A stretch of 64,000 bases of DNA from Sedimenticola sp. (GTDB lineage Bacteria; Pseudomonadota; Gammaproteobacteria; Chromatiales; Chromatiaceae). The stretch's first letter is position 1; every line of letters begins with the position of its first letter. This document shows, in pieces, positions 53,417 through 64,000 of this stretch. The stretch covers positions 62,001 to 126,000 of the forward strand of contig JALXAM010000047.1 of assembly GCA_026992075.1 (NCBI GenBank), in the 5' to 3' direction. A model generated the notes under the pieces. It ran no database searches, had not been told where the DNA came from, and saw only the letters and a program-made list of their open reading frames with translations. A program made the position numbers and the translations under genes.

Positions 53417-54160
53417 TCAGGAGTTCTCTTCTTCCAGTTCCAGCTTGCGCGCCCAGCTGGCCACGTGCCTTTGCTCCCTGGGGTTGTCCACCATGTTGCG
53501 GGTGGGGCTGAAGAAGACGCCCACGCCGTGCAGCAATTTGCTGTAGGGAAACACGATCATCAGTGTCGCCACCAGCAGCAGGTGAATGACCAGCAGCGGA
53601 TCACCGGGCAGCGGCTTCAGATCGAAGGTGAGAAGCCCCATGGTAAATTGTTTGAGCGCCACGATGTCGGTGTGGGCCACGAAGGTGGTGAGTGCGCCGC
53701 TCAGCCCGATGAGCACCAGCAGCGCCAGCATCAGGTGGTCGGAAGGGGCAGTGATGTAGCGCACGCGATCGATGAGGAAGCGGCGTGCCCACAGACCCAA
53801 CAGGCCGATGATCATGGCGAAGGAAGCGTACTTGCCGAAAGGCTGCGCCAGTTGCACCACCAGAGGCACGGGATCCAGGAAGTAGCGCAGGTGACGGAAG
53901 AGCACCAACGCCAGACCATAGTGGAATAGCGCCGCCAGGATCCAGAGCAGCTTGTTGCTCTTGAAAAGGCTTTCGAAAAAGAACACTTCGCGGAACATGC
54001 GCAGGACCACGCCCCACCTGGTCACTGGAGCGGGCGTGGTGGCTATCTTCAACGGCGCCGGCACCTTGGCATAGAGCCAGACACGGTAGAGCACCCCGGT
54101 GAGGAAGATCACCGCGGCGAAGTAGAAGAGCGCTGCGACAATGATGGTCAGAAGCGACAT
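53417..54160 (-). CDS. dsrM: DsrM, NarI-like cytochrome b subunit
   Basis: A 247-residue membrane protein with about five or six helices (TIIVAALFYFAAVIFLTGVL, LMLALLVLIGLSGALTTFVA, LLVIHLLLVATLMIVFPYS). It has His residues placed in these helices for two b hemes, as in NarI. It links DsrK to the quinone pool. A very stable hairpin lies between it and dsrC. Confidence 0.9.
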   Translation of the reverse strand: MSLLTIIVAALFYFAAVIFLTGVLYRVWLYAKVPAPLKIATTPAPVTRWGVVLRMFREVFFFESLFKSNKLLWILAALFHYGLALVLFRHLRYFLDPVPLVVQLAQPFGKYASFAMIIGLLGLWARRFLIDRVRYITAPSDHLMLALLVLIGLSGALTTFVAHTDIVALKQFTMGLLTFDLKPLPGDPLLVIHLLLVATLMIVFPYSKLLHGVGVFFSPTRNMVDNPREQRHVASWARKLELEEENS

Positions 54161-54192
54161 GTTTCGAAAACCCTTTCAGATGGTACGGGACA

Positions 54193-54218
54193 GGGAAGGC
54201 GTCCGAAGACGCCTTCCC
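54193..54218 (-). terminator. hairpin between dsrC and dsrM (stabiliser/attenuator)
   Basis: Perfect 11-base arms GGGAAGGCGTC and GACGCCTTCCC around a TTCG loop on the minus strand, 19 bases after the dsrC stop. No T-run follows. It fits partial termination or 3' protection of a dsrC-rich mRNA. Confidence 0.7.
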
Positions 54219-54236
54219 ATCTTCGGGGCAGGTTGC

Positions 54237-54569
54237 TCAGACGCAACCGGTAGGCTTGGGCAGGCCGGCGTAACGGCAGGCCTGCTTGCCAGGACCATAG
54301 GGGAACAAGCCATACAGGTACTTGCTGTTGCCCTTCTCCTTGCCCAGGCGCTTGCCCACGGCCTTGGTGAGCACGCGCACTGCGGGTGCAATCTGGTACT
54401 CCTCGTAGTACTCGCGCAGGAAGTTGATGATCTCCCAGTGCTCGTCGGTGAGTTCCAGGTCGTCTTCCTTGGCCATGGCCTCGGCCACGGCGGGCTCCCA
54501 GTCATCGAGGTTAACCAGGTAACCTTCCTCGTCGGTCTCCAGGGTCTTACCATTCACTTCGATAGGCAT
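54237..54569 (-). CDS. dsrC: DsrC, sulfur-trafficking protein
   Basis: A 110-residue DsrC with the mobile C-terminal arm ACRYAGLPKPTGCV. The two conserved Cys residues are Cys98 and the penultimate Cys109, so it can form the intramolecular disulfide and trisulfide states. It shuttles sulfur from DsrEFH to DsrAB and is the substrate of DsrK. A second, Cys-free copy lies at 61364-61708. Confidence 0.96.
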   Translation of the reverse strand: MPIEVNGKTLETDEEGYLVNLDDWEPAVAEAMAKEDDLELTDEHWEIINFLREYYEEYQIAPAVRVLTKAVGKRLGKEKGNSKYLYGLFPYGPGKQACRYAGLPKPTGCV

Positions 54570-54624
54570 CTTTCTCTCTCCTAGCTATATCAATAAAAAG
54601 AATCTTCGGGTCGGGCGCTCGGCC

Positions 54625-54933
54625 TCAGAGCCAGGCCTGAACCTTGCCGCAGGCGTCAACCAGATCCACGAAACCCGCGTAGTCCACCATCTCCACGCCT
54701 TCGATCAGCCGCTCGGCCTTGAGACCACGGGCCTTGAAGTCGGGCTCCAGCACGTACACCTTCTTGTCGGCCAGCGCACTGGCCACCTTGTCGGTAGCCG
54801 TGGTGCCGGTGATGGCGGCATACACTCCATCCTCGTACAGCAGGATGGAGGAGCCGGGCTTGGACAGCCGCAGGCAGGTATCCAAGGAGGGCTTCTCGAA
54901 AGGAGACTTGTTCACGGTGTGCAGATCGCTCAT
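54625..54933 (-). CDS. dsrH: DsrH, TusB-like subunit of sulfurtransferase DsrEFH
   Basis: A 102-residue DsrEFH-fold protein with the conserved Cys20 (SLDTCLRLSKPG) and a YEDGVYA segment. It makes the hexameric DsrE2F2H2 complex that hands sulfur to DsrC. It follows dsrF by 12 bases. Confidence 0.93.
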   Translation of the reverse strand: MSDLHTVNKSPFEKPSLDTCLRLSKPGSSILLYEDGVYAAITGTTATDKVASALADKKVYVLEPDFKARGLKAERLIEGVEMVDYAGFVDLVDACGKVQAWL

Positions 54934-54945
54934 CTTTGATTCTCC

Positions 54946-55353
54946 TCAGAAGCTGAATACCACGTCGGACGCTTCCAGCAGCTCGGCAAGCTTGTCGGAA
55001 TCGACCACTTCCACGATGTTGTCCACCGTCTCCTCGGTCTCCCAATCCTCCCAGGGCACCACCTGCAGGTCGTCCTGCGTGAGGCCGCGGGCTTCCAGGG
55101 AGTCCTTGTCGACATAGATGTGACGAACCTCGTAGTCGCCCAGGGTCTTGTAGGTGGGCGAGAAGTTCTTCATGCCGATACCGGTGGTGTCCTGCCCGGT
55201 GACGAGCTGAAACACGCCATCATCGATGAAGGCCAGACTCACCGCCTGCTCGAAGGCTGCGGCGATGAGCACCACCTCCAGCGACTCCCAGGCATAGATG
55301 GTGCCGTAGGGCGCACGGCGATTGAGGAACATGAACTGCTTCTTGTCAGACAT
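54946..55353 (-). CDS. dsrF: DsrF, TusC-like subunit
   Basis: A 135-residue DsrEFH-fold protein: FMFLNRRAPYGTIYAWESLE, then EQAVSLAFIDDGVFQLVTGQ. It has no Cys, as expected for DsrF, which is structural rather than catalytic. It lies between dsrE and dsrH with short spacers. Confidence 0.92.
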   Translation of the reverse strand: MSDKKQFMFLNRRAPYGTIYAWESLEVVLIAAAFEQAVSLAFIDDGVFQLVTGQDTTGIGMKNFSPTYKTLGDYEVRHIYVDKDSLEARGLTQDDLQVVPWEDWETEETVDNIVEVVDSDKLAELLEASDVVFSF

Positions 55354-55368
55354 CGATCAATCCTCCCG

Positions 55369-55761
55369 TCAATCGCCGAACACGACCAGCTTGTCACACT
55401 GGATGGCCGCCTCAACGAGCTGCCCCAGGCCGGAGATCCGGAAGCGGGGCGCAATGTTGGTGGCGTCCTTCCCGTTGCGCTGGGCCTCGCCCTCGTCCAC
55501 GATGCCGCGGCGCTGGGCGGCGGCGACACAGACCACCAGGTCCAGGTCGTACTTCTCCGCCAGCTCCACCCAGTTGTTGACCACGTTGCGGTCGTCCTGG
55601 GGCGGCGTGGTCAGACGGGTGCCATTGAGCACGCCATCGTGATAGAAGAAGACGCGGAAGCACTCATGGCCCTTCTCCAACGCCGCCTTGGTGAAGTGGT
55701 AGGCGGAGTCGGAGGCCTGGTGCTGGTAGGGGCCTTCGTTTACCTGAATCGCGAATTTCAT
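55369..55761 (-). CDS. dsrE: DsrE, TusD-like catalytic subunit
   Basis: A 130-residue protein with Cys78 in DLDLVVCVAAAQRRGI, the sulfur-binding Cys of DsrE, and N-terminal KFAIQVNEGPYQHQASDSAY. DsrE takes sulfur and passes it to DsrC. It follows dsrB by 23 bases. A further Cys (HECFRVFF) is not in the conserved site. Confidence 0.93.
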   Translation of the reverse strand: MKFAIQVNEGPYQHQASDSAYHFTKAALEKGHECFRVFFYHDGVLNGTRLTTPPQDDRNVVNNWVELAEKYDLDLVVCVAAAQRRGIVDEGEAQRNGKDATNIAPRFRISGLGQLVEAAIQCDKLVVFGD

Positions 55762-55784
55762 GAGCGGTTTGACTCCTCAGCCGT

Positions 55785-56858
55785 TCAGAAGCGGATGTGC
55801 GCCGACTGGTTCAGGTTGTTACGACTGCCGCGCCAGTTGTCGATGTGGTACTTGGTGAACGGCAGATCGGTGAGCTCGAAGAAGCGCTTCCAGCCGATGC
55901 GCTCCACCCACTCGCCCATGCGCTCCCACTCCTTGGCGTTCTCCTTGTAGGCCTTGAGGATCTTGGTCACGATCTCGGCGACCTCGGGCCAACGCGGAGC
56001 GTTGTTGGGGATGTTGGAGGCCACCAGCTTGTGGAACATGGGCTTGGAACGGGCGTTGGAGTGCTTGCCGCCAACCCAGATCGACAGGCGGGTGTACTCG
56101 GAATCGTTGATCTGCATCGGCGGGCAGGGCGGGAAGCAGGCGCCGCAGCAGACGCACTTCTTCTCGTCCACCTCCAGGGTGGGCTTGCCGTTCACCATGG
56201 CGGGACGGATGGCCGCCACCGGGCAGCGCGCGACCACGGCGGGACGCTCACAGGCGTTGGCCACCAGATCGTGGTTGATCTTCGGCGGCTTGGTGTGCTG
56301 CACGTTGATGGCGATGTCCCCCTGGCCGCCACAGTTGATCTGGCAACAGGAGGTGGTGATGTGCACCCGGTTGGGCATCTCCTCGTTCTTGAACTCCTCG
56401 TAGAGGGTGTCCATCATCGCCTTCACCACACCGGAGGCATCGGTGCCGGGGATGTCGCAGTGCAGCCAGCCCTGGGTGTGGGAGAGCATGGTCACCGAGT
56501 TGCCGGTTCCGCCCACCGGATAGCCCAGGCTCTCCAGGCGCTCGATGAGGGGCTCCACCTTGGACTCGTCGGTGGTCATGAACTCCATGTTGCCGCGCAT
56601 GGTGAAACGGATGTAACCGTCACAGAACTCGTCGGCGATGTCGCAGATGGTACGCAGGCTCAGAATGTCCCACTGGCGCGGGGCGCCGGCCTTGACGGTC
56701 CACACCTCGTCGCCGTTCTTGGACACATGGTGCAGCACCCCGGGACGCGGACGGTCGTGGTAGGCCCACTGGCCATAGTTCTTGCGCAGCACGGGATGCA
56801 TGTACTGGAAATGATCCGGCGTACCGGACTCGATGGGCATGCGAGGTTGATCGGACAT
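55785..56858 (-). CDS. dsrB: DsrB, reverse dissimilatory sulfite reductase beta subunit
   Basis: A 357-residue DsrB. The siroheme/4Fe-4S ligands include TSCCQINCGGQGDI, and the inserted ferredoxin domain has CERPAVVARCPVAAIRP and KCVCCGACFPPCPPM. With DsrA it oxidises sulfane sulfur to sulfite, taking six electrons. It follows dsrA by 89 bases. Confidence 0.95.
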   Translation of the reverse strand: MSDQPRMPIESGTPDHFQYMHPVLRKNYGQWAYHDRPRPGVLHHVSKNGDEVWTVKAGAPRQWDILSLRTICDIADEFCDGYIRFTMRGNMEFMTTDESKVEPLIERLESLGYPVGGTGNSVTMLSHTQGWLHCDIPGTDASGVVKAMMDTLYEEFKNEEMPNRVHITTSCCQINCGGQGDIAINVQHTKPPKINHDLVANACERPAVVARCPVAAIRPAMVNGKPTLEVDEKKCVCCGACFPPCPPMQINDSEYTRLSIWVGGKHSNARSKPMFHKLVASNIPNNAPRWPEVAEIVTKILKAYKENAKEWERMGEWVERIGWKRFFELTDLPFTKYHIDNWRGSRNNLNQSAHIRF

Positions 56859-56947
56859 GCGTACCTCCTGAAATACTGAAATTCGTCTGTAGCTTGATCC
56901 CGGCCGCGGAATCCTCCGCAGCCGGGATGCGGTTCGTTGCTATGGGA

Positions 56948-58216
56948 TCAGCTGGCCGCGGCCTTCTTGCGCTCTTCCCACTTGGCGGCCTCCTCGTCCC
57001 AGCCGTCCATGCGGACATAGCTGCTGGTACGCGGACGCTCCACCATGTTGGGATCGACGTCGACGCCGATGCCCTCGAGGAAGTTGGCCAGACCGATACG
57101 CTCGATCATCTCGCCGGTGCGCTCGTGCTCCAGCGCGTTCTCGGCGAAGAAGTCGATGATCTCCTCGGCCAGCTCCACCAGCTTCTCCACGTCTTCCTCG
57201 GTGTCCACCTTCATGAAGGGGATCAGCACGGTGCCGAACAGGTCGCCGATCTTCAGGGTGCGCTTGCCGCCGATGAGAATGGTGGCCCCCTTATCGTCGC
57301 CCGGAGAGAGCGCCTTGGTCATGACGTTGATGCAGTGCATGCAGCGCACGCAATCCTTGTTGTTCACCTCCAGGGTGTCGTCGTCATGCAGCGTCAGCGC
57401 ATTGGTGGGGCAGCGGGTGATGACGTTGTCGATCACGTACTTGCGTCCCTTCTTCTCGACGAAGGCCTTCACCTCCTCCTGGTTCACCTTCATGTCGTCG
57501 CGCCAGGTGCCGATGATGGCCATGTCGGCGCGCTGGATGGAGTTGGTGCAATCGTTGGCGCAACCGCTGACCTTGAACTTGAACTTGTAAGGCAGCGCCG
57601 GACGGTGCATGTCGTCCTGGAAGTTGTTGAGCAGGGTGCGCATGATGTTGTGCTCGTCGATGTTGGAGTGCTCGCAACGAGCCGCACCCACGCAGGACAT
57701 GCCGGTGCGCACGCAAGGGCCTGCGCCACCGAGGTCGAAGCCCAGCTCGTTCATCTCGTCGAAGCAGGGCTGCACGGCATCGGAATCCATGCCCACCAGC
57801 ATCAGGTTGCCGGTCTGGCCGTGCAGGCAGATCATGCCGGAGCCGTACTTCTCGTCGATATCGATGATCTTGCGCAGCACGTCGGTGTTGTAGAAGAAGC
57901 CCGGCGGGGGCTGGATGCGCATGGTGTGGAATTCCGCCGCCTTGGGGAAACGGGGCTTGCCCTCATCGTCCTTCAGCTCGGTGAAGCGGGGAATGATGCC
58001 GCCGCCGTAACCGAACACGGTGATGGTGCCACCCTTCCAGTAGCCGAGACGGGTTTCATAGGAAGTCTCCAGCTGACCCAGCAGGTCGTTGGCCATGGCG
58101 TTGATGCGCTCGCTGGGATGCTCGTCGCGCAGGCGCTTGATGCCTTTGATGAAGCTCGGCCAAGGCCCCTCCTCGAGCTGGTCAATCATGGGGGTATGGT
58201 GCTTTTCGATCGCCAT
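56948..58216 (-). CDS. dsrA: DsrA, reverse dissimilatory sulfite reductase alpha subunit
   Basis: A 422-residue DsrA, first gene of the operon. The active-site motif is CVRTGMSCVGAARC with KVSGCANDC; the ferredoxin insert has RCPTNALTLHDDD and DCVRCMHCINVM. It forms the alpha2beta2 reverse sulfite reductase with DsrB. The start (MAIEKHHTPMIDQLEEGPW) has AGGAGA eight bases upstream. Confidence 0.96.
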   Translation of the reverse strand: MAIEKHHTPMIDQLEEGPWPSFIKGIKRLRDEHPSERINAMANDLLGQLETSYETRLGYWKGGTITVFGYGGGIIPRFTELKDDEGKPRFPKAAEFHTMRIQPPPGFFYNTDVLRKIIDIDEKYGSGMICLHGQTGNLMLVGMDSDAVQPCFDEMNELGFDLGGAGPCVRTGMSCVGAARCEHSNIDEHNIMRTLLNNFQDDMHRPALPYKFKFKVSGCANDCTNSIQRADMAIIGTWRDDMKVNQEEVKAFVEKKGRKYVIDNVITRCPTNALTLHDDDTLEVNNKDCVRCMHCINVMTKALSPGDDKGATILIGGKRTLKIGDLFGTVLIPFMKVDTEEDVEKLVELAEEIIDFFAENALEHERTGEMIERIGLANFLEGIGVDVDPNMVERPRTSSYVRMDGWDEEAAKWEERKKAAAS

Positions 58217-58717
58217 TTTTCAGTCTCCTGACTAGATCGTGAATACGGTAGTTCTCTGACGAGCCATGGCGCCATGCCGGCTCGAATCTGTTGTCACTCC
58301 TCTCTGCGAATGGGGCGGCGCCAGGGTTGTGGCGCTCCACCTCCATCGACAGCAGCTAACTGTAGCCGAGCCTTGCCCCGGAGACACTCCGCCATCGGGG
58401 GTATTCGGGCCTCTGGCGACTATCCCCAAAGGGATAGAACAAAGCCGCCAGCAATGCCTCGTCGATACCGGAACATCTTTCCAACCCATTGATCCGGCAA
58501 CTCTTTCCCCTTCAAAAGAGGCGGTTCCGGCTGGCCCGATGAGGCAAGATGCGAGCGCCCCTCAATAAGTATTTCAGAGTATACTCATCTTCAAAACGAC
58601 GGCTGATGGTAGACAACGGAAGCCTTGAAGGTCAACCGGGATGGATGAGGTGTTGATCTGGATCAAATCGATGCCATATTCTGGCCTGAACGAACCGCTG
58701 AAGGAGAGCCGAAAGCG
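58217..58717. promoter_or_regulatory. dsrA / small-ORF divergent regulatory region
   Basis: About 500 bases without a gene. It holds a small hairpin (CTATCCC-CAAA-GGGATAG, 58420-58437), the 10-base palindrome GAGTATACTC (58577-58586), the FNR-type box at 58653-58666, and a possible plus-strand promoter TTGATC-N18-TATTCT (58653-58682). I could not assign a clear -35/-10 pair for dsrA. Confidence 0.6.
58653..58666. promoter_or_regulatory. FNR/CRP-family (Anr-type) binding site
   Basis: TTGAT-CTGG-ATCAA is a perfect match to the FNR consensus TTGAT-N4-ATCAA. It lies 437 bases upstream of dsrA and 52 bases before the small divergent ORF, and its first half overlaps the candidate -35 of that ORF. 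Confidence 0.7.
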
Positions 58718-58918
58718 ATGAACGACGAACCCCTTGCCCTGAGCAACATCCTGGTTTCCAACTATGAACTCGAGAGTTTCGAAGAACTGTTGGAGCTGGT
58801 GCGCGAGTACGCGCGCCACGGCGAACGCTTTCTCAAGACCGATGTGAAGCCGGAATTCCCGGACACTCCCGAGGACTGGGAGGACCGCATCGAGGCCGCC
58901 TTCTGCGGTCGGGTGTGA
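58718..58918 (+). CDS. small acidic hypothetical protein divergent from dsrA
   Basis: A 66-residue protein with no recognised domain: NDEPLALSNILVSNYELESF, then a helical ELLELVREYARHGERFLK and DTPEDWEDRIEAAFCGRV. AAGGAGAGCC lies eight bases upstream of the ATG. It is the first gene of a three-gene run with the next two ORFs, spaced by five and two bases, so the three are probably cotranscribed. Confidence 0.6.
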   Translation: MNDEPLALSNILVSNYELESFEELLELVREYARHGERFLKTDVKPEFPDTPEDWEDRIEAAFCGRV

Positions 58919-58923
58919 GGACC

Positions 58924-59637
58924 ATGGACTTTCTCGATCCCGGGCAGCAGCCCGACGTGATGCCGGTCTCCCCGGCCGAGGAGGCCGCGGAGAAGGCGCG
59001 CCTGGAGGGCGAGCTCTTCGAGCTGCGGCAGCGCCACGCGGAGCTGCCTGCCGATGCCCCCCAACGCCACGGGCTGGCGCTGGAGATGGCACGCAACCTG
59101 GCGCTGCTAGAACAGGGGGAAGAAGCCTGGCCACTGGCGCGCGAGGCGTTGGACCATTTCATCGCCACCGAGCAATGGCAGCCGGCCGCCGAGGCGTGCG
59201 AAGTGCTCTACCTGGCCGACCAGCCCGGTTCCCTGGCGGCACTGGGCCAGGGTATCTGGCTGGCGGTGACCTATCCCATCGACCCGGAGGTGACCCTCAC
59301 CCTGCTGCAACACCTCATCGACGACACACCACCCGACGCCGACGGCGCTGCGGTGGCCGCCGCCACCGCTGCTTTCGTGGCCGACCTGCGCGCCACCGAG
59401 CCAAAGCAGCGGGAGGATCTGCTCTTCTTCACCCAGCAGATGCTGGGCAACGTGGCCCGGCGCCACAGCCAGGTGGAGAACCAGGCCCAGTTCGACTACT
59501 GGATCGAGAAGCTGGAGCTGGACCAGCCCGACAAGTTCCTGGTGCGACTGCGCAACATCGTGGACGTGCTGGTGCAGGACGACTGGTGGTTCGACCGCGA
59601 GGCGCTGCAGGCGCGGCTGCCGGACCCGGAGGAGTGA
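58924..59637 (+). CDS. hypothetical helical-repeat (TPR-like) protein
   Basis: A 237-residue helical protein with repeat-like segments (RHGLALEMARNLALLEQGEE, QWQPAAEACEVLYLADQPGS) suggesting TPR-type helix pairs, then a region ending in VRLRNIVDVLVQDDWWFDRE. No enzyme motif. The GTG at 58915, overlapping the previous stop, is an alternative start. It lies two bases before the Cas6-like gene. Confidence 0.6.
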   Translation: MDFLDPGQQPDVMPVSPAEEAAEKARLEGELFELRQRHAELPADAPQRHGLALEMARNLALLEQGEEAWPLAREALDHFIATEQWQPAAEACEVLYLADQPGSLAALGQGIWLAVTYPIDPEVTLTLLQHLIDDTPPDADGAAVAAATAAFVADLRATEPKQREDLLFFTQQMLGNVARRHSQVENQAQFDYWIEKLELDQPDKFLVRLRNIVDVLVQDDWWFDREALQARLPDPEE

Positions 59638-59639
59638 AC

Positions 59640-60326
59640 ATGTTCTGGGAAGAGGAGACGGAACAGGAGATCCCGGAGCAGTCCAGCCGGGTGATGGATC
59701 TCTCCTTCCCCATCCGCAGCCGCATGCTGCCGGTGGACCACCTCCACGCCCTGCGCCAGGCGCTGCTGGCCCACCTGCCCGAGCTGGAAGCATGGCGGGT
59801 GGGCGTTCACGAGATCCACCTGGCCGGCTCCCAGAACGGCTGGGAGCGCCCGGACCCTGCCCTGGGGCAGCACCTGATCCCCTCACGGCGCACCCGCATG
59901 CAACTGCGGGTACCGATGGAGTTCGCCGACGAGCTGGCGGCGCGGCTGTCCGGCCGCACCCTCGACCTTGGCGACTTCGAGCTCACCCTGGGCGAACCCA
60001 GGCGCAAGCCGCTCTTCAGCCACCCCACCCTCTATGCCCGCCACATGAAAATGGAAGCGGGGGAGGCGGAGGATGAAAACCGCTTTCTCCAGCGCATTGC
60101 CGAGGAACTCAAGGAGAAGCGGATCCGGGTGAAGAAGGCGCTCTGCGGCAAGACCACCGAGATCGCCACCCCGGAGGGGCCCTGGATCACCCGCAGCCTG
60201 ATGCTGGCCGACCTCTCGCCCGAACATTCGCTGCAGCTCCAGGAGGAGGGGCTGGGCGGCAACCGCCAGATGGGCTGCGGCCTCTTCCTGCCCATGAAGG
60301 GCATCCAGGCGCTTTCAACCGACTGA
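59640..60326 (+). CDS. Cas6 (Cmx6, type I-MYXAN)-like protein
   Basis: A 228-residue protein that matches the Cmx6 family as I know it: MDLSFPI (19-25), LPVDHLHALRQALLAHLP, a Ser/Arg strand pair (IPSRRTRMQLRVP), LYARHMKM, and the C-terminal Gly-rich loop GLGGNRQMGCG (204-214) before LFLPMKGI. That loop is the family's RNA-binding G-loop. Candidate catalytic His residues are in DHLHAL and VGVHEIH. No other cas gene or CRISPR array is near. GAGGAG lies six bases upstream of the ATG. Confidence 0.7.
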   Translation: MFWEEETEQEIPEQSSRVMDLSFPIRSRMLPVDHLHALRQALLAHLPELEAWRVGVHEIHLAGSQNGWERPDPALGQHLIPSRRTRMQLRVPMEFADELAARLSGRTLDLGDFELTLGEPRRKPLFSHPTLYARHMKMEAGEAEDENRFLQRIAEELKEKRIRVKKALCGKTTEIATPEGPWITRSLMLADLSPEHSLQLQEEGLGGNRQMGCGLFLPMKGIQALSTD

Positions 60327-60333
60327 CACTTCT

Positions 60334-60481
60334 AAGGAAGGCCTGAAAAATTCGGGCCTTCCTTCGGCACAAGGATGTGCCGGCAAAATCGATCTCTGTA
60401 AGCGATTGATTTTGTAGCAAGCCGCAAACCGCGTTTGCGGCGCAGCGCGCCCTGATAAAGCCAAGGATGGCTTTTATCAGG
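60334..60481 (+). repeat. array of five adjacent stem-loops after the Cas6-like gene
   Basis: Stems at 60334-60364 (10 bp plus extensions), 60365-60382 (6 bp), 60384-60414 (11 bp, one G-T), 60421-60441 (8 bp) and 60451-60481 (13 bp with one bulge). Two loops share the octamer CAAGGATG (60370-60377 and 60462-60469). The first begins seven bases after the stop at 60326 and could act as a terminator, but no T-run follows. Confidence 0.75.
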
Positions 60482-60490
60482 TAAATTTGG

Positions 60491-60652
60491 GGTTCACCCC
60501 GGATCATGGAAAAACATCACGTAGGAGCGGCGTCCCCGCCGCGAACCCGCAACGGCGTGAAGCGATTTCGTCGTTCGGCGCGGGAACGCGCCTCCTACAT
60601 TCGAATTCTCCGTGATCTCCGTGTCTCTGTGGTTATTTCCACATCAAGTCGG
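60491..60652 (+). repeat. family B composite repeat
   Basis: Third copy: GGTTCACCCCGGATCATGG, GGAGCGGCGTCCCCGCCGC, TTCGGCGCGGGAACGCGCC, TCCTAC, GAATTCTCCGTG and GGTTATTTCCAC. Same orientation as 42568-42718. Confidence 0.85.
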
Positions 60653-60674
60653 ACAGGCTTCCAGAAACGGCATT

Positions 60675-61133
60675 TCACTTCACCGTGATGCGGTAGGCCG
60701 CGTGACAGGCGACGCAGTTGCCCATCAACTCCGCCAGCTGCTCCCGTGCGTGCTGGGAATCGCCCAACTGGCGGGCATCAAGCGCCAGGGCGTCGAACTT
60801 GCCGTGGGTATCGAAACCCAGCTTCTTGAACTCCAGCGGCAGCTTGGCCATGAGGGCCACTGGCACATCCCTGGCCGTCCCCATGCCCACCCGAGAGGCC
60901 GCCTCGGCCACCGCCGCCATGTCGCCACGATTGCTGGCCGCCAGGATCGCCTGAGCGGCGGCCAGGAAATCCCGCATCTCCTTCAACACCAAATCACGCT
61001 CGCTCTCTTCGAGCAACAGCGCCTGGCGTCCATCCGGCGCCACCTGCACATTGCCCAGCACGATCACCTTGTAAGCCGCTCCGGCCAGGATCAGCAGGAA
61101 GGCTGCCAACAGGCCCCAACACAGTTTGCACAT
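60675..61133 (-). CDS. class II (c'-type) cytochrome c, membrane-anchored
   Basis: A 152-residue protein with an uncleaved-looking N-terminal hydrophobic helix (LLAAFLLILAGAAYKVIVLG) and one heme motif CVACH near the C-terminus (MGNCVACHAAYRITVK), the class II cytochrome c arrangement. The four-helix body lies between. It is likely periplasmic and tethered; an electron-transfer or NO/redox role is possible. The ATG at 61133 is chosen over an upstream TTG. Confidence 0.82.
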   Translation of the reverse strand: MCKLCWGLLAAFLLILAGAAYKVIVLGNVQVAPDGRQALLLEESERDLVLKEMRDFLAAAQAILAASNRGDMAAVAEAASRVGMGTARDVPVALMAKLPLEFKKLGFDTHGKFDALALDARQLGDSQHAREQLAELMGNCVACHAAYRITVK

Positions 61134-61233
61134 GAACAAAGTCCCCGGTTCCGCGTCGTTTGGTCTGGCCGCAGATGATACCCGGAATCCTGGCTCAGAT
61201 CCGGGTAATCGAATGTGGAAACATGCTTGAGGA

Positions 61234-61305
61234 GCAGGATGGGCAAAGGCCGCCAGGCCATGCCCATCGGGCGGTGGCGGGCAGGCTGCGCTTTGCCCAC
61301 CCTAC
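61234..61305 (+). repeat. family A doublet, left arm of the inverted pair around rspA
   Basis: Type II (plus) then type I (minus) in a 72-base unit. Its reverse complement matches 61840-61911 at about 68 of 72 positions. It lies 59 bases upstream of the RspA start. Confidence 0.85.
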
Positions 61306-61363
61306 AGCGACTGTTTTAGAATCTCGCGACTTTCTGATTGCCCAGACGACAGGAGGGACGCAG

Positions 61364-61708
61364 ATGCCTTACGAAGTGAACGGCCAGACCATCGAAACGG
61401 ACGAGAACGGATACCTGGCCGATCCCAACGACTGGAACGAGGAGGTGGCCAAGGTGATCGCGGAGGCCGAGGGAGTGAACCTCACCCAGGAGCACTGGGA
61501 CGTGATGAAGTACCTGCGCGATACCTATTTCGAGGAGGGAGGCCACCAACCCAACAACCGGGAGATGGTGAAGGCGATGAGCAAGATCTGGGGCCGCAAG
61601 GTCGGCTCCAAGGATCTCTTCATGCTCTTCCCCGGCAGCGGCGGCCCCTCCAAGCAGGCAGCCAAGATCGCCGGGCTGCCGGAGACCAAGCGGAAAGGGG
61701 GTTATTGA
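61364..61708 (+). CDS. RspA-type DsrC paralogue lacking both Cys residues
   Basis: A 114-residue DsrC-family protein (MPYEVNGQTIETDENGYL, NLTQEHWDVMKYLRDTYF). The C-terminal arm reads KQAAKIAGLPETKRKGGY: the position of DsrC Cys98 is Ala, and Cys109 is absent. The whole protein has no Cys. Proteins of this kind are called RspA and are thought to be regulatory rather than sulfur-carrying. AGGAGGG lies seven bases before the ATG. It is flanked by a 72-base inverted pair of family A doublets. Confidence 0.85.
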   Translation: MPYEVNGQTIETDENGYLADPNDWNEEVAKVIAEAEGVNLTQEHWDVMKYLRDTYFEEGGHQPNNREMVKAMSKIWGRKVGSKDLFMLFPGSGGPSKQAAKIAGLPETKRKGGY

Positions 61709-61711
61709 TCT

Positions 61712-61752
61712 GACCCTCACCCCGACCCTCTCCCGCACGCGGGAGAGGGAGG
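61712..61752. repeat. family C palindrome
   Basis: CCCTCACCCCGACCCTCTCC CGC...GCGGGAGAGGG directly after the RspA stop. A partial family B block (GGAGGCGCGTCCTCGCACCG ... GGTTCGCGGCCGAGAGGCC) follows at 61757-61831. Confidence 0.7.
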
Positions 61753-61839
61753 GCGCAGGAGGCGCGTCCTCGCACCGAACCGGAACCCCGGTGACTCCCT
61801 AAAAGGTTCGCGGCCGAGAGGCCGCTCCTGCGAATCACC

Positions 61840-61911
61840 GCAGGGCGGGTAAAGCGCAGCCTGCCCGCCACCGCCCGATGGGCATGGCCTGGCGGCCTTT
61901 TCCCATCCTGC
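61840..61911 (-). repeat. family A doublet, right arm of the inverted pair around rspA
   Basis: Type I (plus) then type II (minus) over 72 bases; the inverted match to 61234-61305 differs at about four positions. It lies between RspA and the convergent reductase gene. Confidence 0.85.
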
Positions 61912-61919
61912 CCCTTCTC

Positions 61920-62924
61920 TCAATCCGCGGCGTATTCGAAGGAGTCGTAGTGCAGCTGCGACTCGGGCACGCCCCGCGCCAGCAGCGCCTCGCGGGCGGC
62001 GCTCACCATGGGCGGCGGGCCGGCCATGTAGATGTCGTACTTGGGCAGCTCGTCGCCCAGATCCTCCAGCACCGCCTCGTGCACCCAACCGGTGCGCCCC
62101 TGCCAGCCTTCGTCCGGCTCCGACAGCACCGGCACGAAGCGGAAGTTGTCGTGTTCCTTCTCCCATTGTTTCGGCAGGTCGGGCAGGTAGAGGTCCTTCT
62201 GTGAACGCACCCCCCAGTAGAACAGCATGGGCCGGTCGATGCCGGCATGGAAGGCGTGCTCGATCTGGGACTTGATGGGGGCGAAACCGGTGCCGCCGGC
62301 GATGAAGAGCATGGGGCGGTCGGAATCCTCGTCCAGGGTGAAGGTTCCCAGCGGCGCCTCGATGCGCAGGATGGTCTCCTCCTTCATCTGGGTGAAGGCC
62401 CAGTCGGTGAAGACGCCGCCGTCCACGTGGCGGATGTGGAGTTCGATGAGGTCGTCTTCGTGGGGCGGGTTGGCGATGGAGAAGGCGCGCCGGCGGCCGT
62501 CGTCGAGAATGAAGTCGAGATACTGACCGGCCATGAACTGGAGCCGCTGCTCCTCGGGCAGCTTGAGCCAGAGCCGCACCACGTCGTCCGCCAGATGGTC
62601 GATCTTCACCACCTTCACCGGCATGGTGCGGGGCTTGATCTCCTCGGGCGTCTCGATCTCCTCCACGTCGATGACGACATCGCTGCGTGGCACCGCCTGG
62701 CATGGCAGGCAGGCGTCCTCGGGGGCATCGATGAGTTTGTCGGGTTCGCCGTCGGGATACTCCACCTCACCTTCCACCAGGGTGGCCATGCAGGCGCCGC
62801 AGAAACCGTTGCGGCAACCATAGGGCAGGCCGATGTCCTGACGAATGGCCGCGTCGAGGATGGTCTCACCCTCCTCCACCTCGAACTGATGGCCGGTGGC
62901 CGCGATCTTGACCTTGAAACTCAT
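61920..62924 (-). CDS. 2Fe-2S/FAD NAD(P)H oxidoreductase (AscD-like)
   Basis: A 334-residue reductase. N-terminal plant-type ferredoxin with PYGCRNGFCGACMATLV and CLPCQAV, then an FNR-type FAD/NAD module: RRRAFSIANPPHEDDLIELH and PMLFIAGGTGFAPIKSQIEH, ending with FEYAAD. It matches CDP-6-deoxy-glucoseen reductase-type annotations and also phenol or methane monooxygenase reductase parts. No partner oxygenase or sugar genes are near, so the partner is unknown. Confidence 0.85.
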   Translation of the reverse strand: MSFKVKIAATGHQFEVEEGETILDAAIRQDIGLPYGCRNGFCGACMATLVEGEVEYPDGEPDKLIDAPEDACLPCQAVPRSDVVIDVEEIETPEEIKPRTMPVKVVKIDHLADDVVRLWLKLPEEQRLQFMAGQYLDFILDDGRRRAFSIANPPHEDDLIELHIRHVDGGVFTDWAFTQMKEETILRIEAPLGTFTLDEDSDRPMLFIAGGTGFAPIKSQIEHAFHAGIDRPMLFYWGVRSQKDLYLPDLPKQWEKEHDNFRFVPVLSEPDEGWQGRTGWVHEAVLEDLGDELPKYDIYMAGPPPMVSAAREALLARGVPESQLHYDSFEYAAD

Positions 62925-63105
62925 GGGATCTCCCGGGTTCCGATTGCGATGATGGCGCGATTGTCGCCCATTTGGCCGGTCAATTAAACCGCGCCCCGGC
63001 AGGGGATCGTTAGCAACCTGCCCTGCTCTTTCGCCACGCCCCCCCTGAGTCGGACAGGCTCCCGGGGTGGTATCATGGCCTCAAACCAACCCTGTTCCGA
63101 ACCGC

Positions 63106-63477
63106 ATGGAAATCGAAGCGCTGCGCGACCTGGTGGTCCAGGTCCTGGAAGAGATGAAGGCACGCGACATCAAGGTGATCGACGTGCGGGGCAAGACCGA
63201 CATCACCGACTATTTCGTCATCGCCTCGGGAACCTCGGACCGGCACGTGAAATCCATCGCCGAGGCGGTGGCCTTCCAGGCCAAGCTCAAGGGCGAACCG
63301 CCCCTGGGCACCGAAGGGGTCAACGAGGGCGAGTGGGCGCTGGTGGATCTCAACGGCGTGGTTGTGCACGTGATGCAGCCCAGGGTGCGGGATTTCTACC
63401 AGCTGGAAAAGCTCTGGTCGGTGGACGCCAAAGCCGCTGAAAAGCTGGTCCGCGAGCGCGGCGCCGAACCTTCTTGA
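63106..63477 (+). CDS. rsfS: ribosomal silencing factor RsfS
   Basis: A 123-residue RsfS/Iojap protein: DIKVIDVRGKTDITDYFVIA, GTSDRHVKSIAEAV and WALVDLNGVVVHVMQPRVRD. It binds ribosomal protein L14 and blocks subunit joining under starvation. nadD, its usual neighbour, is not seen upstream. The ATG at 63106 is preferred over a GTG at 63067. Confidence 0.92.
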   Translation: MEIEALRDLVVQVLEEMKARDIKVIDVRGKTDITDYFVIASGTSDRHVKSIAEAVAFQAKLKGEPPLGTEGVNEGEWALVDLNGVVVHVMQPRVRDFYQLEKLWSVDAKAAEKLVRERGAEPS

Positions 63478-63494
63478 TTTTCTTTCTTCGGGTT

Positions 63495-63604
63495 GATGGG
63501 CACGGCCTTACGGCCTTTGCCCATCCTGCTTATCCACCTTACCACCGGCTAGCACGGGACTCGCGGATCACCGTAGGGCGGGCAAAGCGCAGCATGCCCG
63601 CCGC
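63495..63604. repeat. family A REP doublet
   Basis: Type II (minus, 63495-63528) and type I (plus, 63573-63604), ends facing inward, after rsfS. Confidence 0.8.
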
Positions 63605-63626
63605 CGAGCTGGCGATCCCCTTTGCA

Positions 63627-63736
63627 GGCCGCTGGTCGACCCTTGGTGGCGGGGTTTCGGCAGCAGGGATTCTGCCGCAAAGCCTACAGGGATGTATTCA
63701 CGGCGTCCCCGCCCCACCAAGGATCGGCCAGCGACC
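63627..63736. repeat. family E palindrome, copy 3
   Basis: Arms at 63627-63654 and 63707-63736 pair with a few mismatches around the core TTCGGCAGCAGGGATTCTGC ... GCCTACAGGGATGTATTCA, shared with 30031-30211 and 45391-45596. The outer TCGGGCTTCAGCCCGA units are missing here. Confidence 0.75.
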
Positions 63737-63769
63737 CTCGCGAAAGCGTTGGGTTCACCGGGTTCGGCT

Positions 63770-64000
63770 TCAAGCACCCCGCTGCAACGCCTCGATGCGC
63801 TTCTCCAGCGGCGGGTGGCTGGCAAAGAGTTCGTGCAGGCCGCGGCCGGCGATACCGAAGGCGGCCATCTCGTCGGGCAGTGGCTCCGGCTGGGCCTGCT
63901 GCAGCCGCCGCAGGGCGGCGATCATCTTCTGCCGCCCCGCCAGGGCGGCGCCACCCGCATCGGCACGGAACTCCCGCCAGCGCGAGAACCAGGCCACGAT
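63770..64000 (-). CDS. htpX: HtpX-type M48 metalloprotease, C-terminal part
   Basis: The frame is open to the window edge; about 76 C-terminal residues are present. [18 protein letters not shown] is the conserved segment after the M48 active site, where the third zinc ligand lies, and [18 protein letters not shown] is the typical end. The HEXXH and membrane helices lie outside the window. Confidence 0.85.

Follow-up and report, generated by a model that had tools for sequence, protein, structure and literature searches.

Why should a gene for Cas6, the enzyme that matures clustered regularly interspaced short palindromic repeat (CRISPR) RNA, stand beside the genes of Dsr sulfur oxidation? The question is raised by a 64,000-nucleotide stretch of DNA from Sedimenticola sp. 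(contig JALXAM010000047.1, positions 62,001 to 126,000; hereafter the window). An earlier reading of its sequence, the original prediction, had singled out three tightly packed genes divergent from dsrA, encoding a 66-residue acidic protein (here sm66), a protein labelled tetratricopeptide repeat (TPR)-like, and a stand-alone Cas6. We find that the last of these, which we call dsr-type Cas6, belongs to a Cas6 subfamily that is independent of CRISPR and tied to the dsr locus of Gammaproteobacteria, along with sm66, in most loci the helical TPR-like protein, and a sulfur-dead paralogue of DsrC (DsrC2). The stand-alone Cas6 was thus correctly recognized, and its tie to dsr consists in co-occurrence over the whole class in addition to position. 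The RNA job that the prediction had suggested for it is carried forward here as a proposal.

A Cas6 subfamily independent of CRISPR

Profile searches and structure prediction both assigned the 228-residue protein to Cas6, in agreement with the original prediction, and the profile scores lie well past chance. It matched Pfam PF09559 (E = 6.2e-56, 189.8 bits against a cut-off of 26.7), NCBIfam TIGR02807 (110.3 bits, cut-off 98.85) and the PADLOC Cas6 model (182.6 bits), and TIGR02807 was matched at E up to 1e-5 by all 46 members of the family alignment. The AlphaFold2 model (predicted local distance difference test score, pLDDT = 90.4) found its nearest solved structure in the Cas6 of a type I-B CRISPR-associated transposon (PDB 8fcj, 8fcu; Foldseek E = 3e-15 for 8fcj_B). 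VIA-align superposed the model on 8fcj with Z = 24.5 and 2.0 Å over 198 residues at 25% identity, and the next best PDB matches were further Cas6 proteins, in accordance with the Cas6 fold of two RRM-like domains. A search of viral contigs returned 23 pattern matches, with no relative among them.

Alignment of 68 dsr-type sequences with ten other PF09559 copies identified the family histidine as H34, a putative catalytic residue at the start of helix 1, which is present in all 68 dsr-type proteins and in nine of the ten others. R90 is invariant in both sets (68/68 and 10/10). The glycine-rich C-terminal loop, by which Cas6 proteins contact RNA and on which the original prediction had relied, is likewise common to both, and dsr-type Cas6 looks capable of cutting RNA. 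In contrast, an NGW insert is restricted to the dsr-type proteins, its tryptophan being found in 68/68 and the position being a gap in all ten others. In the profile alignment, the type I-B transposon Cas6, which sits in a Cascade, also lacks this NGWERP insert.

The two sets split at 100/100 support in a midpoint-rooted tree without outgroup, in which a branch of 1.39 changes per site lies on the dsr side of the root. The dsr-type sequences in this tree came from 30 order loci (every second of 60) and 38 class loci, and the ten comparison copies came from one order only; L300 was omitted because it repeated the copy taken from L297. By coordinates, Cas1 lies within 9 kb of five of these ten comparison copies, which establishes the label CRISPR-type for that half. 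Dsr-type Cas6 therefore shares with the Cas6/Cmx6 proteins of type I CRISPR-Cas systems (PF09559, TIGR02807) its sequence family, fold, H34 and glycine-rich loop, and differs from them in its insert, its separate group and its recurring neighbours, which are dsr, sm66, the TPR-like gene and DsrC2.

It also differs in that its presence is unrelated to Cas1. We searched 210 genomes of the Chromatiales (the order) and 369 genomes drawn evenly from the Gammaproteobacteria (the class). At a cut-off of E = 1e-3, which counts some weak or fragmentary matches (e.g. G006, G199) as carriers, Cas6 was matched in 188 of the 210 order genomes and Cas1 in 131, with no association between the two (p = 0.10): 121 of the 188 carriers have Cas1 and 67 do not. 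Within the genus itself, Cas6 was found in 14 of 15 genomes, and Cas1 was absent from eight. Of 16 chosen genomes searched with PF09559, ten, all of the order, carry a further full copy in addition to the dsr-type one, and in five of these ten genomes the additional copy has Cas1 at a distance of up to 9 kb, as judged by coordinates.

The Sedimenticola sp. genome (2.73 Mb, 99.98% complete) holds a single copy of dsr-type cas6. It is not CRISPR-free, which corrects the picture given by the window: contig C3 (L093:7873-12239) bears a type I-E CRISPR locus that reaches the contig end and comprises an array whose repeats recur every 61 bases, genes for Cas1 and Cas5, and a separate Cas6e (PF08798, 175 bits). 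An assignment of the genome's weak Cas1 matches to type I-F was rejected, as the locus proved to be type I-E. In the window, a direct-repeat scan detected no array, in agreement with the original prediction, the open reading frames not all having been scanned for other cas genes. Of the two outcomes that the prediction had named as counting against it, a missing profile or fold match and a CRISPR locus making use of this gene, neither was found; the genome's CRISPR locus belongs to type I-E and has a Cas6e of its own.

Co-occurrence and linkage with dsrA

The original prediction had described the link to dsr as one of position only. It is considerably stronger. Among the 369 class genomes, Cas6 was found in 118 (every match at least 156 bits) and dsrA in 119; 111 genomes carry both, seven Cas6 only, eight dsrA only and 243 neither (p = 7e-75). 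The same coupling was evident within the order, with both genes in 180 of the 210 genomes, Cas6 only in eight, dsrA only in seven and neither in 15 (p = 2e-12). These counts cover all genomes searched, and the lists of absences were completed by elimination.

Many of the discordant genomes are incomplete or have a contig end near the unit. Five of the class genomes with dsrA only (G279, G288, G419, G446, G561) are less than 90% complete, and in G332 (L261) sm66 abuts the end of its contig. Four order genomes with dsrA only were looked at, and in three of them (G166, G066, G119) the contig ends before or inside the unit. Conversely, five of the eight order genomes with Cas6 only were followed: in G016, G017, G023 and G034 the contig ends no more than 700 bases past sm66 on the dsrA side, and in G046 a dsrA fragment lies where the contig stops. 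G042, G187 and G196 of this group, and G319 among the class genomes with dsrA only, were left out.

We read 120 stretches, 98 of which contain cas6 and 22 do not; the loci were chosen by hand, each genus of the order contributing one or two, while those of the class came from the list of TPR-like matches plus special cases. A divergent dsrA lies within 4.5 kb in 82 of the 98 cas6 loci, sm66 lies upstream in 90, the TPR-like gene is present in 81, and cas6 has a DsrC-family gene downstream in 81. Among 568 relatives from public genomes we examined the 80 best with flanks of 6 kb, many of them shortened by contig ends; these loci showed sm66 in 77, the TPR-like gene in 62 and dsrA in 65. These 80 loci include Sedimenticola, Allochromatium, Thiocapsa, Thiocystis, Thiohalocapsa, Thiothrix, Cocleimonas and one Acidiferrobacterales genome. 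Within Allochromatium, A. palmeri and A. warmingii have the unit next to dsr.

The association persists where the genes are physically apart. Twelve class genomes that consist of a single contig carry both genes, and by eye Cas6 and dsrA are no more than 2.5 kb apart in ten of these; in the remaining two the distance is ~41 kb (G318) and ~517 kb (G532), both genes being kept. In G318 (1.4 Mb), dsrA, Cas6 and the sm66-TPR pair occupy three separate places and are all retained. Five genomes of 1.0-1.1 Mb retain sm66, Cas6 and DsrC2 beside dsrA, with no match to the TPR-like protein. In 17 fetched class stretches the TPR-like gene stands without an adjacent Cas6, and 92 of the 93 class genomes with the TPR-like protein also carry Cas6. 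One genome, G270 (L266), has Cas6 beside dsrA and no sm66 anywhere.

Companion genes and the surrounding DNA

Alignment of 33 copies of sm66 revealed a core motif, DVKPxYxDTPxxWEDRLEAAF. No Pfam family was matched by more than one of these copies (best E = 0.019), and no convincing match to the protein was obtained in Pfam, NCBIfam or the PDB. The TPR-like protein of the window matched nothing in Pfam (E up to 5) or NCBIfam, and among 42 members of the helical family only stray NCBIfam matches appeared, each in a single member. Its AlphaFold2 model (pLDDT = 94) consists of eleven successive helices, in keeping with a TPR-like protein, and gave weak PDB matches only (best Foldseek E = 0.011; template modelling score up to 0.46/0.55 among the matches listed). 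The TPR-like label is compatible with the all-helical model, and no TPR profile was recognized. In six sequence pairs inside the genus Sedimenticola, the ratio of nonsynonymous to synonymous substitution rates (dN/dS) was 0.13-0.31 for Cas6 and 0.07-0.34 for the TPR-like protein; for sm66 it was 0-0.04 in the four pairs with finite dS. Away from dsr, in L161, L162, L166 and L167, the TPR-like gene adjoins relatives of one 228-residue protein and, in two of these four loci, a 128-residue protein; neither neighbour had a Pfam match in L167.

The gene unit reaches past the trio to DsrC2, downstream of cas6. By profile DsrC2 is a member of the DsrC/TusE family (PF04358), from which it differs in its C-terminal arm: cysteine is absent from the last 15 residues in 80 of 81 copies, and 75 of the 81 contain no cysteine at all, whereas 75 of 76 operon DsrC proteins have both cysteines. 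The loss of cysteine from the sulfur-carrying arm suggests a role in sensing or binding rather than in sulfur transfer. Cysteine-free members of the DsrC family may go by the name RspA, which our literature search did not confirm for this family.

The features of the locus are collected in Table 1. Re-reading of the coordinates reproduced the three reading frames, the two-base spacing, the acidic 66-mer and the divergence from dsrA exactly as they had been reported.

Table 1. Coordinates of the dsr-type cas6 unit and adjacent features in the window.
Feature	Position	Strand	Basis
sm66, 66-residue acidic protein, first gene of the unit	58718..58918	+	open reading frame coordinates
TPR-like all-helical protein, 240 residues	58915..59637	+	GTG start overlaps preceding stop
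dsr-type Cas6, 228 residues	59640..60326	+	ATG two bases past the TPR-like stop
DsrC2, DsrC-family paralogue ending RKGGY, without both catalytic cysteines	61364..61708	+	PF04358, 118 bits
Cytochrome-like gene between cas6 and DsrC2, outside the conserved unit	60675..61139	-	CxxCH motif in sequence
dsrA, divergent neighbour	56948..58216	-	dsrA in 187/210 order genomes
Perfect FNR-type palindrome TTGATCTGGATCAA before sm66	58653..58666		conserved block, nine aligned genus sequences

dsrA and the three-gene unit diverge over a gap of 501 bases. The palindrome TTGATCTGGATCAA in this gap was labelled FNR-type from the consensus that we take to be that of FNR. With at most one mismatch, such a site occurs in 14 of 81 loci and in 36 of 810 control stretches, and is chiefly a genus feature. 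The gap also holds an inverted repeat, CTATCCCC-AA-AGGGATAG (58420-58437), which recurs in nine aligned genus sequences with changes mostly in mid-repeat and is a candidate operator or RNA hairpin. Four successive hairpin-forming palindromes, recognized by eye and scored for the first one, lie just past cas6 (60333-60480). A search of positions 54000-64000 against Rfam yielded three matches, all far under the gathering scores.

The cytochrome-like gene was matched only in L001-L003 among the 30 nearest loci, some of which were ended by contig ends; in L002, the nearest relative, a cytochrome-like gene stands close behind cas6 where the window has the palindromes. In 42 of 81 class loci dsrA and sm66 are separated by a TauD-like gene, as with the TauD-family dioxygenase gene L134:4652-5647; a search of the Sedimenticola window with the L134 gene found none. 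Outside the class, the Cas6-free locus L311 has a TauD-family gene (PF02668) in the same place, and the other close outside-class locus has a similar open reading frame there, as judged by eye. L312, from a dsr-bearing genome likewise outside the class and without Cas6, encodes a 73-residue DUF6967 protein (PF22295; L312:1208-1432) behind sm66.

A proposed RNA-directed role and its alternatives

We propose that a Cas6 was taken from CRISPR immunity and now serves oxidative (reverse) Dsr metabolism as a dedicated accessory factor acting on RNA, a proposal for and against which we see about equal weight. In the mechanism that we favour, a Cas6 lineage recruited in the Gammaproteobacteria would most likely form a small RNA-binding module with sm66, the helical TPR-like protein and the cysteine-free DsrC2. 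Cas6 would bind structured cellular RNA and probably cut it through H34, sm66 and the TPR-like protein may serve as adaptors, and DsrC2 could be a sensor or a competitor of true DsrC. Cleavage by Cas6 proteins typically leaves 5'-OH and 2',3'-cyclic phosphate ends. The likeliest target would be the long dsr transcript; unequal levels of its segments have been reported despite co-transcription. According to an excerpt of PMC3368242, the dsr genes of Allochromatium vinosum, a laboratory strain for which dsr mutants exist, are transcribed together, dsrC and dsrS having additional promoters, and under sulfide the dsrEFH and dsrC transcripts exceed that of dsrA (excerpt of PMC3397948, citing Grimm et al. 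2010). Such unequal levels would fit an RNA-processing factor encoded beside dsrA; for dsrC, the extra promoter would fit as well.

Several observations weigh against this proposal. G415 (L260, 99% complete) has dsr without Cas6 and sm66 and seems truly to lack Cas6, and in G031, an order genome with dsrA only, the remaining 2.9 kb of the contig contain no unit. In a sample of 214 genomes of the phylum Pseudomonadota, dsrA was matched (E up to 1e-60) in 45 besides the source genome. None of the 26 of these dsrA-bearing genomes outside the class that were searched carries Cas6, with a query that had found the 118 class carriers; Dsr chemistry in itself therefore does not require Cas6. In two of these 26 genomes, where dsrA is closely related (65-66% identity), sm66 lies divergent from it and Cas6 is absent. 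sm66 therefore seems to be the older companion of dsrA, and from its distribution Cas6 seems to have been added, or kept, in the Gammaproteobacteria. The CRISPR origin of the lineage and its single recruitment are also matters of interpretation, because the tree has no outgroup and its ten comparison copies represent one order. Finally, 8fcj has no histidine at the position of H34 in the profile alignment, so catalysis could be lost in the dsr-type proteins despite retention of H34.

Comparison of hairpins in the dsr gaps, too, revealed no RNA substrate of Cas6. Counting stems of at least 7 bp with a score of at least 18, we detected hairpins in 46 of 84 dsrA-dsrB gaps and 67 of 81 dsrC-dsrM gaps, both of which carry stems in the Sedimenticola window. 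Stems were found in fewer of the other gaps (dsrB-dsrE 16/83, dsrH-dsrC 1/82, cas6-DsrC2 17/80, TPR-cas6 4/81, sm66-TPR 4/80). None of 20 shuffles was as good in 44 of 80 dsrA-dsrB and 58 of 79 dsrC-dsrM cases, and the hairpin sequences vary between species. In five small genomes that keep Cas6, both stems fall below the threshold. dsr loci without known Cas6 served as controls, G746 (L306) and G718 (L309) not having been searched for Cas6 themselves: the Cas6-free loci L304 and L305 have dsrA-dsrB stems of 6 and 11 bp (0/50 shuffles as good), the more distant dsr loci L306-L310 show no such stem, and L260 has no gap there. The stems are thus not specific to Cas6-bearing loci, and as substrates they are a weak lead only.

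The most serious alternative, which we regard as possible if clearly less probable than recruitment for RNA processing, is that the Cas6 fold was kept and the nuclease lost, leaving an RNA- or protein-binding scaffold of a Dsr-related complex that might hold DsrC2, the TPR-like protein and sm66. The insert confined to dsr-type proteins, the cysteine loss in DsrC2, which suggests that binding outweighs chemistry in this module, and the histidine-free Cas6 of 8fcj would all suit a scaffold; conservation of H34 throughout the dsr-type set and in nearly all the other copies, together with the retained glycine-rich loop, argues for a working nuclease. We consider it unlikely that Cas6 guides the thiolation of tRNA or another RNA together with the DsrC-family protein, in the manner of the homologous Tus relay. 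DsrEFH and DsrC are homologous to TusBCD and TusE, and a DsrC-family gene follows cas6 in most loci, but nearly all DsrC2 copies lack the cysteine of the C-terminal arm and hence carry no sulfur there, and the 26 dsrA genomes searched outside the class do without Cas6.

Tight linkage in 82 of 98 loci also raises the question of whether cas6 is a functionally unrelated passenger inherited with the dsr locus, since shared inheritance alone would yield much co-occurrence. Against this speak the two genomes that keep both genes tens to hundreds of kilobases apart, the stretches with a solitary TPR-like gene in a class where TPR carriers almost always have Cas6, the retention of Cas6 in genomes of 1.0-1.1 Mb and the purifying selection indicated by dN/dS, and we judge a mere passenger very unlikely. 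We give least credence of all, and very little, to a spare processor of CRISPR RNA serving arrays in trans. The protein is a Cas6 by its profiles and most order carriers (121/188) do have Cas1, but 67 carriers, eight of them in the genus itself, have none, the two genes show no association, the array of the source genome belongs to a type I-E locus that includes a Cas6e, and ten order genomes possess further PF09559 copies in addition to the dsr-type one. On these grounds a CRISPR role is disfavoured.

Known systems offer only partial parallels. DsrR and DsrS are likewise accessory genes of oxidative dsr and, to our knowledge, are not described as relatives of Cas6. DsrR has been linked to the regulation of sulfur oxidation (excerpt of PMC11406059); unlike dsr-type cas6 in its divergent unit, dsrR and dsrS are placed inside the dsr operon itself by the excerpt of PMC3368242. 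Solo-Cas4 belongs to a different family, and the excerpt of PMC5704561 names no tie to a metabolic pathway. We found no description of a dsr-associated Cas6 in the open-licence PMC literature searched, and other dsr papers may contain earlier notice of it.

Dsr-type Cas6 matches a model named for CRISPR and is thus likely to be annotated as such, while it accompanies dsr across numerous sulfur-bacterial families, which range from purple sulfur bacteria and Thiothrix to organisms with genomes of ~1 Mb. If our proposal is true, a Cas protein has been exapted into energy metabolism, and surveys of genomes would be warned against counting such Cas6 matches as CRISPR-Cas. Attention would be drawn to sm66 and the helical protein as two families still without a name. 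The locus would also point to a specific factor that might control dsr after transcription, where one transcript gives rise to segments at unequal levels. Dsr-type Cas6 may then be the first Cas6 endoribonuclease to act as a fixed metabolic RNA-processing factor, a statement that we find evenly balanced between acceptance and doubt: a CRISPR-derived enzyme that, with sm66 and a sulfur-dead DsrC, would mature or control dsr or other sulfur-metabolic RNA, even in genomes of ~1 Mb.

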